Below, in pieces: positions 19,376-21,990 of a DNA stretch of 39,472 nt; position 1 is the stretch's first letter; each line of letters starts with the position of its first letter. The notes under the pieces are model-generated. The model did not search any database. It saw nothing but the letters and a program-made list of their open reading frames with translations, and was not told where the DNA came from. This DNA is from Actinomycetes bacterium. GTDB lineage: Bacteria > Actinomycetota > Acidimicrobiia > Acidimicrobiales > RAAP-2. The stretch spans positions 1 through 39,472 of the forward strand of contig JAJYNX010000056.1 of assembly GCA_021786095.1 (NCBI GenBank), written 5' to 3'. The position numbers and the translations under genes were made by a program.

Positions 19376-19391
19376 TGTTTCACGTGAAACT
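19376..19391. promoter_or_regulatory. parS site (15 of 16 bases)
   Basis: The sequence TGTTTCACGTGAAACT matches the consensus parS (TGTTTCACGTGAAACA) except for the last base. It lies upstream of parA, where ParB can load and may also regulate the operon. Confidence 0.92.
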
Positions 19392-19462
19392 CATTATTCA
19401 ATTACCATTCCCCAACAGGGAAACTAGAGGGTTTCCGTCGGAATCTTGCGCCCCGGTCACTG

Positions 19463-19478
19463 TGTTTCACGTGAAACA
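19463..19478. promoter_or_regulatory. parS site (perfect)
   Basis: An exact 16-bp TGTTTCACGTGAAACA palindrome, the ParB nucleation site. It is about 6 kb from oriC, within the usual origin-proximal window. Confidence 0.95.
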
Positions 19479-20310
19479 TCCAGACGAGCGCAGGTGTCGA
19501 GCACGGGCTAGGGGTTACGAATCCCGCTGACTGGGCTCCGTACGACTGACCTCCACCCAGCGAGATGCTACCCCGCTCGTCCCGGAGTACCTCATTGACT
19601 CGACCACGCTTCTCGTGTACGAATCCCTCGCGCCATCGCCCCAACGGTGGAGAGATCCTCGGTGACACCGTCGTCCCTGACGATCCACGGGCGAGTCACC
19701 GCCAGTCACGAGGAGTTCTCGCCTTCTGCACTGCTCGTCTCCCATCTCGCGTGGCCGTCTCACCTAGTCGGAGAACGCTCCCCGGTCGCCGCTCTAGGGG
19801 TCGGCACCGCGACTCGAGCCCCGAGACTGACTAGGCACCGAGCATGCGTCGCGAAACCCCAACGAGATCCACCGATCATCAGACCGGTCAACTTGTGAGC
19901 CACCCCGGAGCCCTGGACGGTGCCAACGAGCTGGTCGGCCAATGGTGGAATGGATGGCATTCCTCTCCAGCCACGTCTAGTTGATCTGACGGTGGTCATC
20001 GCCATAGTCCGGCGAAGAGGCACTAGAGCCTCACGCCCCTGCGTCTCCGCGCACCCACAAGACAGCAACGAGCTCGCTCCATCCCGGGACCTAGCAACTC
20101 GGGCGGAGACGCGAGGACCTCCGGCCAACAGACCAATGACGGCGGCGGACCGACATTCTTCAAACAACTTCCGGTGAAATCCCAGTTGGAACAAGTCCTC
20201 TCATCGCAAGGCGCAGATCTACTCAGTCCCACCCTTCACGAAAGATCCGGCTCCCATGGCCAATGCCTAACCACCAGCGTCATGTTTGGTGTCGACCAAT
20301 CTCCGCACCC

Positions 20311-20446
20311 AAACCTCACCAGAGCGGACGTTTCGCGGGAAGCCCCGTAGGTCGCGGGAACTTCTCCGGTGTCGCCTCACGCTTCACGAGGACGTGGAAG
20401 GACGCAGACGCCCGAAACGAGCCCCGAGACTCCAGACCAAGCCTGC
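20311..20446. repeat. 136-bp direct repeat, copy 1 (rsmG 3'-end fragment)
   Basis: This copy is base-for-base identical to 20461-20596, the last 44 codons and stop of rsmG, offset by exactly 150 bp. It lies downstream of the rsmG stop and cannot be translated as part of rsmG. The perfect identity points to a very recent tandem duplication, gene conversion or an assembly artefact. The left edge begins with AAAC, the right arm of parS, without the rest of the palindrome. Confidence 0.9.
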
Positions 20447-20449
20447 CAA

Positions 20450-20465
20450 CGTTTCACGTGAAACC
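20450..20465. promoter_or_regulatory. parS site at the repeat junction (14 of 16 bases)
   Basis: CGTTTCACGTGAAACC contains the complete 14-base parS core with both outer bases changed. It straddles the junction of the two repeats: its right AAACC belongs to repeat copy 2 and ends next to the rsmG stop codon. Confidence 0.85.
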
Positions 20466-20596
20466 TCACCAGAGCGGACGTTTCGCGGGAAGCCCCGTAG
20501 GTCGCGGGAACTTCTCCGGTGTCGCCTCACGCTTCACGAGGACGTGGAAGGACGCAGACGCCCGAAACGAGCCCCGAGACTCCAGACCAAGCCTGC
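20461..20596. repeat. 136-bp direct repeat, copy 2 (inside rsmG)
   Basis: This is the functional copy: it encodes the rsmG C-terminus from about residue 164 to the stop. It is identical to copy 1 at 20311-20446. The 14-bp spacer between copies (20447-20460) differs from the sequence after copy 2, so the visible repeat is not a longer array. Confidence 0.9.
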
Positions 20597-21089
20597 GAAG
20601 ACCTTCCTCGCTCCAACGACTCACACCCTGCTCTCCCGGGGGCTCTGAAACGATCAGGAGGCCGCCCAGCACGAGAAAGCGCGCCGCACACTCTGCCGTT
20701 ACCGCGGGCCTACCAAACGACCGGGCCACAACGAGCTCAAAAGACGAGTCCAGACGGGCATCCCGAGAGGCGACCTCGCTCCTCCCGCATATGACTTCTG
20801 CGAAGTGGGGGGAATCGGGCCACTCGAGAACTTCACGAAGAAAGGCCGTTCTCTTCTCCATGGCGTCCAGGAGTGTCACCCGAGTACGCCACCGCTCCAA
20901 CAGAACGAGGCCGGGGACACCGCCCCCACTCCCGAGGTCCAGCCAGGTTCCCGGAGCAACGGTAGAAAACCGATCCCAAGCCTGGATGAAACCCTCCGCA
21001 TGTTCGACGTGGGTAGAGATCGGACCAGGACCTAAAAAGCCCCGCGCCCTCGATTCCTCGAGGGCGCGGGGCAACCAGTCTGATGTCAC
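20466..21089 (-). CDS. rsmG: 16S rRNA m7G527 methyltransferase RsmG (GidB)
   Basis: RsmG methylates G527 of 16S rRNA using S-adenosylmethionine. Its loss gives low-level streptomycin resistance in known bacteria. The 207-residue product has the SAM motif TWLDLGSGGGVPGL (about residues 48-61), TLLDAMEKRTAFLREV and SSFELVVARSFGRPA. The RGFLGPGP motif near residue 16-23 is also found in actinobacterial homologs, so translation must begin upstream at GTG 21089, seven bases after jag. A strong intrinsic terminator lies inside these first codons. The C-terminal 44 codons are duplicated downstream. Confidence 0.93.
   Translation of the reverse strand: MTSDWLPRALEESRARGFLGPGPISTHVEHAEGFIQAWDRFSTVAPGTWLDLGSGGGVPGLVLLERWRTRVTLLDAMEKRTAFLREVLEWPDSPHFAEVICGRSEVASRDARLDSSFELVVARSFGRPAVTAECAARFLVLGGLLIVSEPPGEQGVSRWSEEGLRRLGLESRGSFRASASFHVLVKREATPEKFPRPTGLPAKRPLW
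21034..21072 (-). terminator. Intrinsic terminator inside the 5' end of rsmG
   Basis: On the minus strand a perfect 15-bp GC-rich stem (arm GCCCCGCGCCCTCGA, 21072-21058, pairing with 21053-21039, loop GGAA) is followed directly by TTTTT (21038-21034). This is a canonical rho-independent terminator at the end of the yidC-jag operon, but it overlaps rsmG codons about 7-18. Confidence 0.8.
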
Positions 21090-21096
21090 CTAAACA

Positions 21097-21990
21097 TTAT
21101 GCCGGAGCAATAACTACAAACCGGCGAGGCTCCTCGCCTTCCGATCGGGTGACCACGTCATCCCTTTCGGAGAGTGCGTCATGAACAGCCTTGCGATCCG
21201 CCGCGGACATCGGCTCGAGAGCTCGCTCCTCTCCCGTCTCAACTACCTCGTGAGCTACCTTCTCTGCGAACCGCCCGAGCGCCGCCACGCGCCGTTCCCG
21301 ATACTGGGCGACATCCACGAGGATCCTGTCAGTGCGACCCGGGCTCTTGGATTGAACAACCGTACGGGTCACCTCCTGAAGCGCCTGCAGTGTCACACCA
21401 CGGGGGCCCACCAGAATCCCCAATTCGGTCGGCGGCGTTGCGTTCACCGCCACCTCCACGGTCTCCTCGTCAATCTCATTGACCGAGACGTCCGCCGTGA
21501 TGCTCATCGATGCTAGAAGACCTTGGAGAAACTCCTTGGCGATTCTTCCCTGTTCGGCCAGTGAAATTCCCTCAGCCATGCTGTCCTCCTTTGATGGACT
21601 CTTCTCCAAGCGTGTCGATTTCGTCACGCCTTCCGACTTTCCAGCCTCTGTGCTGGCTGAATTCGACTTCTTCGTCCGCGAGGGCTTGGTCGCCGACTTG
21701 CTACGAGGGCTTCGCTCGTCTTCCTTTTCCTTCTTCGGTACGCCCGAGCGCGGGCGGTCCGAGCGCGGGCGATCCTCACTGCCCTTCGCCCGGCGAGACC
21801 GCTTGGGACGAGGACCTGATGGACGAACCCGAGCTCGAACCCGAGCCTCTCCCCGCACCCGCCCAAAGAGACCCGCCTTGGGTTCCTCAAGTATCTCAAT
21901 TTCCGCATCGTCCCGATGGACGCCCAAGTGGGCGAGGGCCCTCTCCGTAGCCTCCTCGATTGACTTTCCGGTTGTTTCGACCCAATCCAT
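21097..21990 (-). CDS. jag: Jag/KhpB RNA-binding protein with Jag_N, KH and R3H domains
   Basis: A 297-residue RNA-binding protein of the KhpB/EloR type, linked in other bacteria to cell elongation and envelope control. Residues 1-50 are a Jag_N domain (ETTGKSIEEATERALAHLGV, then PKAGLFGRVRGEARV). Residues 55-137 are a very basic Lys/Arg/Ser linker. A KH domain follows (about 165-225, with ILVGPRGVTLQALQEVTRTVV), then R3H (230-297, with YRERRVAALGRFAEKVA). Mycobacterial Jag lacks Jag_N and has about 190 residues, so this long form is notable. An internal ATG at 21579 has a consensus Shine-Dalgarno. yidC lies five bases upstream, and the two share an operon. Confidence 0.95.
   Translation of the reverse strand: MDWVETTGKSIEEATERALAHLGVHRDDAEIEILEEPKAGLFGRVRGEARVRARVRPSGPRPKRSRRAKGSEDRPRSDRPRSGVPKKEKEDERSPRSKSATKPSRTKKSNSASTEAGKSEGVTKSTRLEKSPSKEDSMAEGISLAEQGRIAKEFLQGLLASMSITADVSVNEIDEETVEVAVNATPPTELGILVGPRGVTLQALQEVTRTVVQSKSPGRTDRILVDVAQYRERRVAALGRFAEKVAHEVVETGEERALEPMSAADRKAVHDALSERDDVVTRSEGEEPRRFVVIAPA
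21577..21593 (-). promoter_or_regulatory. Internal Shine-Dalgarno and ATG within jag
   Basis: On the minus strand AAAGGAGG is followed five bases later by ATG (21579, Met138 of Jag), a near-perfect ribosome binding site. Translation from it would give a 160-residue KH-R3H protein, close to the usual actinobacterial Jag size. Whether ribosomes use it is unknown. Confidence 0.55.

Follow-up and report, generated by a model that had tools for sequence, protein, structure and literature searches.

Introduction

Searches for attenuators usually look upstream of start codons. One of the closest described systems to the element reported here is the attenuator of Escherichia coli pyrBI, in which an intrinsic terminator lies within a translated frame (pyrL), where the progress of a ribosome can suppress termination (PMC5021804, PMC4824070). 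Here we describe a hairpin with a T-run inside codons 6-19 of rsmG, the gene for 16S rRNA methyltransferase G, in a member of the order Acidimicrobiales (Actinomycetes bacterium, RAAP-2; assembly GCA_021786095.1). The window, i.e., the whole stretch of DNA analyzed, is a 39,472-base contig (JAJYNX010000056.1) from a 2.1-Mb genome in 117 contigs. We favor, with some reserve, the reading that the element is an intrinsic terminator which is kept by selection at the RNA level and attenuates rsmG.

The translated frame of pyrBI is that of a leader peptide, whereas that of rsmG is the N-terminus of the enzyme itself, so that hairpin and protein constrain each other. The pyrL hairpin was reported still to reduce the expression of a reporter approximately 18-fold, coupling being mostly not achieved (PMC5021804). 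The premature (5′) terminators surveyed in Genome Biology in 2010 likewise stand at the head of a gene and allow read-through, but in that survey the sensing system lies between the promoter and the first start codon, whereas the rsmG element follows the start codon; the word rsmG is absent from the main text (PMC2965389). Transcript 3′ ends inside E. coli reading frames, some of them produced by premature termination, were reported in eLife in 2021, but the available parts of that paper describe no codon-embedded terminator with genus-wide covariation (PMC7815308). Mycobacterial leaderless genes are a further parallel: the -10 element stands directly upstream of an ATG or GTG that begins with the first mRNA nucleotide, and there is no Shine-Dalgarno sequence (PMC4633059). 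The portion of the source that was available describes no terminator in the first codons of such genes, and the leaderless start considered below for rsmG is predicted from sequence. No paper on a terminator embedded in the codons of rsmG was found among the matches listed in the open-licence PMC literature.

Features of the element

The features on which the analysis is based are as follows.

20466..21089, minus strand: rsmG (gidB), 16S rRNA methyltransferase G, 207 amino acids (open reading frame; PF02527 at 49 bits, cut-off 27)
21089-21087, minus strand: start codon GTG of rsmG
21039..21072, minus strand: perfect 15-bp stem with a 4-nt loop (GGAA, 21057-21054), rsmG codons 6-17 (from its place and covariation in the genus)
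21033..21038, minus strand: T-run TTTTTA, i.e., codons F18 and L19 of rsmG (from codon bias in the carriers)
21096..21101, minus strand: putative -10 element CATAAT over the last codon and the stop codon of jag (predicted from sequence)
21097..21990, minus strand: jag (Jag_N, R3H), the gene upstream of rsmG, with its stop codon TAA at 21099-21097, 7 nt before rsmG

The minus strand from 21072 to 21039 reads GCCCCGCGCCCTCGA-GGAA-TCGAGGGCGCGGGGC, followed by TTTTTA; all 15 pairs are perfect, and 13 of them are G-C. Counted from the GTG at 21089, the stem-loop occupies offsets 17-50, and the sequence directly 3′ of it is TTTTTAGG, with TTTTT at 21038-21034. Stem-loop and T-run together fill codons 6-19. 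The original prediction, made by a model from the letters of this stretch, was of a 15-bp GC-rich stem plus TTTTT just after the rsmG GTG, the T-run coding for part of the conserved RGFLGPGP motif; both statements are confirmed, the element lying at 21072-21034 and its T-run forming codons F18-L19 (TTT TTA).

Folding of a 91-nt RNA gave -47.4 kcal/mol (z = -4.5; none of 200 shuffled sequences was as low). The terminator was the only long stem in this fold, in which no search for an antiterminator was made. The plus-strand copy of the repeat has no T-run behind it, which makes the element one-directional. When the peptide LPRALEESRARGFL was held fixed and its codons were redrawn at the pooled usage of the remaining rsmG, 129 of 200,000 draws gave all 15 pairs, and 7.1% of all draws gave TTTTT. 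Over the 76 sequences of the genus that carry the element (defined below), the corresponding p values ranged up to 0.059, and only five carriers gave 0 of 5000. Chance is thus unlikely but not decisively rejected for one sequence, and the case against it rests on conservation across the genus.

Within the window, the rsmG element was the only stem of at least 8 pairs followed by five of six T. A DNA search of the genome itself with the element returned the rsmG start as the sole place on both strands, and a mobile or repeated hairpin was rejected on this ground. A loose scan of 12 kb (at least 5 pairs) yielded 10 terminator-like sites against 7.2 expected; with this count near expectation, the rsmG element is distinct by its strength alone, the runner-up having 6 pairs. 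Two other candidates were set aside: a hairpin at the end of jag (21138-21123), which has 6 pairs only and a poor tail, and a frameshift at the T-run, the stem being upstream of the T-run. The Rfam search of 20300-21800 gave three matches at E values up to 1, all far below the gathering score.

Conservation and covariation in the genus

The sample of the genus comprised 99 genomes, 84 of which had a match to rsmG; 83 rsmG 5′ ends were used (the window and 82 further loci), genome G036, with a match at the rsmG C-terminus only, being left out. Fifteen of the 99 genomes, several of them more than 90% complete, had no rsmG match. Two loci with Ns inside the element (L022 and L152) were left out of the element counts, leaving 81 readable sequences, and a sequence was counted as a carrier when 11 or more of the 15 pairs were formed at offset 17-50, as in the window. 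The element was found in 76 of the 81, the non-carriers being L149 and L163-L166. All 15 pairs are formed in 40 carriers, 14 in 24, 13 in 10 and 12 in two.

Regarding all 15 pairs of the 76 carriers, 1033 cells are Watson-Crick, 57 G-U, nine A-C and 41 other, cells from related species not being independent of one another. Regarding the inner 11 pairs, every one of the 836 cells is Watson-Crick (825) or G-U (11). The inner 11 pairs thus contain 11 G-U cells and no A-C cell, and the outer four contain 46 and nine, respectively, an excess of G-U that points to RNA of the rsmG strand. The outermost pair is formed in 62 of the 76 carriers. Among the 61 distinct sequences, changes on both sides occur at 10 of the 15 pairs (38 cells), a value reached in none of 500 shuffles, and pairing amounts to 95.1% in the true register as against at most 59.7% with slid partners. 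Many of the paired changes are synonymous on both sides (e.g., CTC/TCG to CTT/TCA). In a phylogeny from which the first 25 residues were excluded, the pair state changes four times at 29-38, four times at 23-44, eight times at 26-41 and 20 times at 20-47; these counts are of state changes, which are compensatory only in part. Nine forms of the loop occur among the carriers, and 11 of 43 alignment columns are invariant and 20 nearly invariant. One check proposed along with the original prediction was whether relatives keep the stem while its codons vary synonymously. This check was run and bore the expectation out, the variation being paired and largely synonymous in the 76 of 81 sequences.

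The same data bear on a DNA palindrome as the target of a DNA-binding protein near the origin of replication. The repeat is a 34-bp inverted one, and three parS-like sites lie close by at 19378-20463, as such an account would have it. A strand direction is nevertheless apparent from the inner-stem G-U cells without A-C cells and from the one-sided T-run, and what the changes preserve is pairing, not letters. We regard a palindrome acting as DNA as most improbable.

Codon usage in the first codons of rsmG carries the same signal. Over the 76 carriers, codon entropy is 0.24-1.2 bits at codons 8-19 as against 1.74 bits at codon 6 and 1.91 and 1.99 bits at codons 20 and 21; the remaining conserved codons of rsmG with four- or six-fold degeneracy show 1.41-2.54 bits. 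Among phenylalanine codons the entropy is 0.32 at F18 and 0.87-1.0 elsewhere in the gene. The constraint therefore begins and ends with the hairpin and the T-run. F18 is encoded by TTT in 64 of the 68 carriers that have phenylalanine there (39% TTT elsewhere in rsmG), and in some carriers residue 18 is Tyr or His, with the codons TAT and CAT. L19 is encoded by TTA in 55 and by TTG in 20 of the 76 carriers, codons that account for 5% and 13% elsewhere in rsmG. TTTTT followed by A or G is present in 63 of the 76 carriers, and each of the five non-carriers reads TTC CTG or TTC CTC at this place. The constant place, the intact inner pairs, the two-sided changes, the local drop in codon entropy and the kept T-run together indicate that the hairpin and T-run are, on this comparative evidence, under selection; the element is very probably a genuine control element, as opposed to a coincidence. 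By its sequence the element also has the parts of an intrinsic terminator, i.e., a GC-rich stem-loop and a U-run, with selection on both the pairing and the U-run.

Start codon of rsmG

GTG or ATG is found at the aligned start place in 78 of the 83 sequences, and residue W5 is invariant (76 of 76 carriers), in agreement with the original prediction that translation of rsmG begins upstream of the T-run. A start downstream of the hairpin was rejected, GTG and ATG alternating at the aligned start, W5 being invariant and GFLGP being present in hairpin-free relatives as well. The translated frame of rsmG accordingly crosses the terminator, the T-run encoding residues 18-19.

The jag-rsmG junction

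Of the 81 junctions that could be measured, 67 have a gap of 7 or 8 nt between jag and rsmG. A Shine-Dalgarno match of at least 4 is absent at rsmG in 76 of 83 sequences. The end of jag was counted in 75 carriers, L128 being left out with jag not reached. The stop codon of jag is TAA in 58 of these 75, compared with 14 of 72 complete rsmG stops and 30 of 363 genes of the sister genome G102, and the base after it is T in 63 of 75. The last alanine codon of jag is GCA in 51 of 69, GCA making up 15% of the alanine codons of rsmG, and 51 of 75 junctions have GCATAAT or TCATAAT at the end of jag. In the window, CATAAT occupies positions -12 to -7 relative to the rsmG start codon. The pattern NANNNT is present at -12/-13 in 56 of the 76 carriers; in the form NAT(AA/AG)T it occurs in 55 of 76 carriers vs none of the five non-carriers, which is a hint, since the non-carriers represent two lineages.

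Upstream of the called genes of G102, TANNNT stands at exactly -12 of 34 of 356 genes, at -13 and -14 of eight and nine, and at each of the other offsets of between 0 and 3 genes. This peak is taken as the mark of leaderless genes, as in mycobacteria, and leaderless genes look common in the genus. In most carriers, and in the window too, rsmG probably has a leaderless promoter, from which transcription would start at the start codon. The original prediction had rsmG depend on translation through the jag-rsmG junction; this is partly supported, the tight junction without a Shine-Dalgarno sequence being conserved, and the putative leaderless promoter (55 of 76 carriers) is an addition that it had not noticed.

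The valine codons -6 and -5 of jag, approximately 23-28 nt upstream of rsmG, are GTG in 72 of 74 and 60 of 75 sequences, respectively. GTG is frequent at these valines in relatives also, and the window is an exception with GTA GTT.

Distribution and origin

In 20 further genera of the family, represented by 40 rsmG loci, the element was not found; in four loci of other genera (L210, L213, L215 and L228), wobble-containing stems of 10-12 pairs overlap the place, without a T-run. None of 48 more distant loci has a stem of at least 8 pairs with five T inside the rsmG start. In a tree rooted on 12 outgroup rows, L163-L166 split first within the genus, with modest support (88/71) for the rest, a topology that fits one gain after this split and one loss in L149, which has a long branch. 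Loci L164-L166 have GGAG near the rsmG start.

A covariance model of the element (R1) was searched against the 99 genomes of the genus, where the matches listed below E = 1e-9 were all at rsmG starts; 88 of the 99 had a match at E ≤ 0.1, many of them weak. Among 198 genomes of the order, 15 had a match at E ≤ 0.01, namely five members of the genus at E < 1e-13 and 10 other genomes at 6e-5 or worse; the match in one of the latter (G123) was inspected and lies away from rsmG.

Few Rho-independent terminators are reported as predicted in Actinobacteria, with 30 in Nocardioides (PMC2965389). For the frequency of such elements in the genus, the sample was 400 kb from the sister genome G102 (L168-L187). 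Stems of at least 8 pairs with five of six T occur there twice, one being the rsmG element, compared with 0, 0 and 1 in Markov simulations; at 10 pairs or more only the rsmG element is left, the simulations giving 0, 1 and 0. The gene caller had erroneously set the rsmG start of G102 after the hairpin, and the element was therefore tallied as 'after stop'. Looser settings gave 7, 5 and 5 sites vs 7-17, 6-12 and 3-6 in the simulations. These counts do not exceed the simulations; as a class, U-tract terminators thus do not stand out in the G102 sample.

In four genomes (G121, G067, G073 and G034), stems of nearly the same letters stand within approximately 20 nt past the stop codon of another gene, with tails that are T-rich in G121 and G067 and weak in G073 and G034. 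Being placed like ordinary terminators, they support the terminator reading of the rsmG stem.

Near-identical stems resembling CCCGCGCCCTCGAG were observed in L198, L201, L205 and L206 just past the stop codon of a gene ending in ...RLLAEDES; it looks as if one terminator sequence had been reused in these four members of the genus.

A terminator at this place need not regulate anything: it could be the plain end terminator of the yidC-jag unit, overlapping rsmG and leaving a constant low read-through. This account overlaps with attenuation, so the probabilities given to the two do not sum to one. Terminators between the upstream gene and rsmG do occur in four of the 48 distant loci (L070, L093, L094 and L101, the last three alike). 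Mycobacterial gidB is reported to have promoters of its own, and a jag-gidB co-transcript was not detected in Mycobacterium smegmatis but was found in M. bovis BCG (PMC2346475); the M. smegmatis result suits a separate end of the upstream unit. A distance of more than 27 nt from the preceding stop codon is reported to leave the lambda tR2 terminator fully active in E. coli (PMC4824070). The stop codon of jag ends 24 nt before the stem, close to this limit for full function but just under it, so that a ribosome on jag could repress termination at most partly. However, a terminator inside rsmG must be crossed by every rsmG transcript, and an intergenic place would be cheaper. Looser U-tract terminators are, moreover, no commoner in the 400 kb than in the simulations, so that genes there seem able to end without one. 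We consider an unregulated end terminator unlikely, if the strongest of the alternatives.

Proposed mechanism

An initiating ribosome reaches to about +15 to +16. In the attenuation that we favor, RNA polymerase would arrive from jag or start at a leaderless promoter made by the last codons of jag, the hairpin would form at +18 to +51, and in many rounds a short RNA would be released near +57, the fraction that reads through yielding RsmG. The stem starts just past the reach of the initiating ribosome and so would not block initiation, and a ribosome entering elongation would first open the base of the stem beside the U-tract, which could plausibly make read-through sensitive to translation. 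From the sequence comparisons, attenuation is likely and translation gating of the read-through is possible. A narrower version, in which the leaderless start is gated by translation and the transcript ends at approximately 57 nt unless a 70S ribosome is already elongating, is put forward tentatively and appears doubtful.

Several observations weigh against this mechanism. Regarding the promoter, 20 of the 76 carriers lack NANNNT at -12/-13, so that the hairpin can be present without the putative leaderless promoter; nine and 12 carriers have NANNNT at -9 and -10, respectively; and the box begins with C, not T, with no -35 element recognized. Regarding the T-run, 13 of the 76 carriers have something other than TTTTT. 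The four outer pairs, which adjoin the T-run, are the least kept, being unpaired in 14, 19, 10 and seven of the 76 carriers; up to a few unpaired bases are thereby left between stem and T-run in such species and weaker termination is expected, so that the weak base in many carriers would count against a fully efficient terminator. A pause gate, in which hairpin and T-run would hold the polymerase near +57 with little release until the first ribosome has loaded, would accommodate such a base, and the element lies at the downstream edge of an initiating ribosome. A 15-bp GC stem with five U is, however, a full terminator by the usual rules, and a pause would need neither so strong a stem nor so strict a T-run; this alternative is improbable.

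The letters of the inner stem are also more uniform than pairing requires, without flips from C-G to G-C, and a sequence-reading protein may be the cause. On that account the stem would be a post-transcriptional binding site on the rsmG mRNA for a protein or small RNA (e.g., RsmG itself or a double-strand-specific RNase), and both the near-uniform sequence of the stem and the better preservation of its inner part than of its base would follow. The T-run, kept with rare codons, is left unexplained by it, no Rfam family was matched at the gathering score, and the loop takes nine forms; we hold a binding site to be quite improbable. Two further points concern the cost and efficiency of attenuation: terminated RNAs under translation would be non-stop messages, and translation is reported to have taken only approximately 10% off the efficiency of an E. 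coli terminator placed 30 bp into a coding region (PMC4824070).

Genomic surroundings

The gene order on the minus strand of the window is rnpA-yidC-jag-rsmG-parA-parB. Three perfect TTTCACGTGAAA (parS-like) sites were found between rsmG and parA, at 19378, 19465 and 20452. The site at 20452 directly follows the rsmG stop codon and stands between the two copies of a 139-nt direct repeat (20311-20449 and 20461-20599; 99% identical, spaced by 150 nt). A second copy of the 3′ end of rsmG thus lies immediately past the gene, with residues 164-207 recurring at 20319-20450.

Significance

Here 42 bases appear to serve both as a terminator and as the code for the N-terminus of an enzyme, the two having coevolved across a genus that, in the sequence sampled, is otherwise nearly devoid of strong U-tract terminators. 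The locus is a natural setting in which to test how close to the start of a translated gene a terminator can still act, and whether leaderless initiation can outrun RNA polymerase. Codon entropy can expose regulatory RNA within coding regions, where searches of gene ends and leaders overlook it. If the translation-gated leaderless start is true, expression of a ribosome-maturation enzyme would read out the ribosomes that are competent for leaderless initiation.
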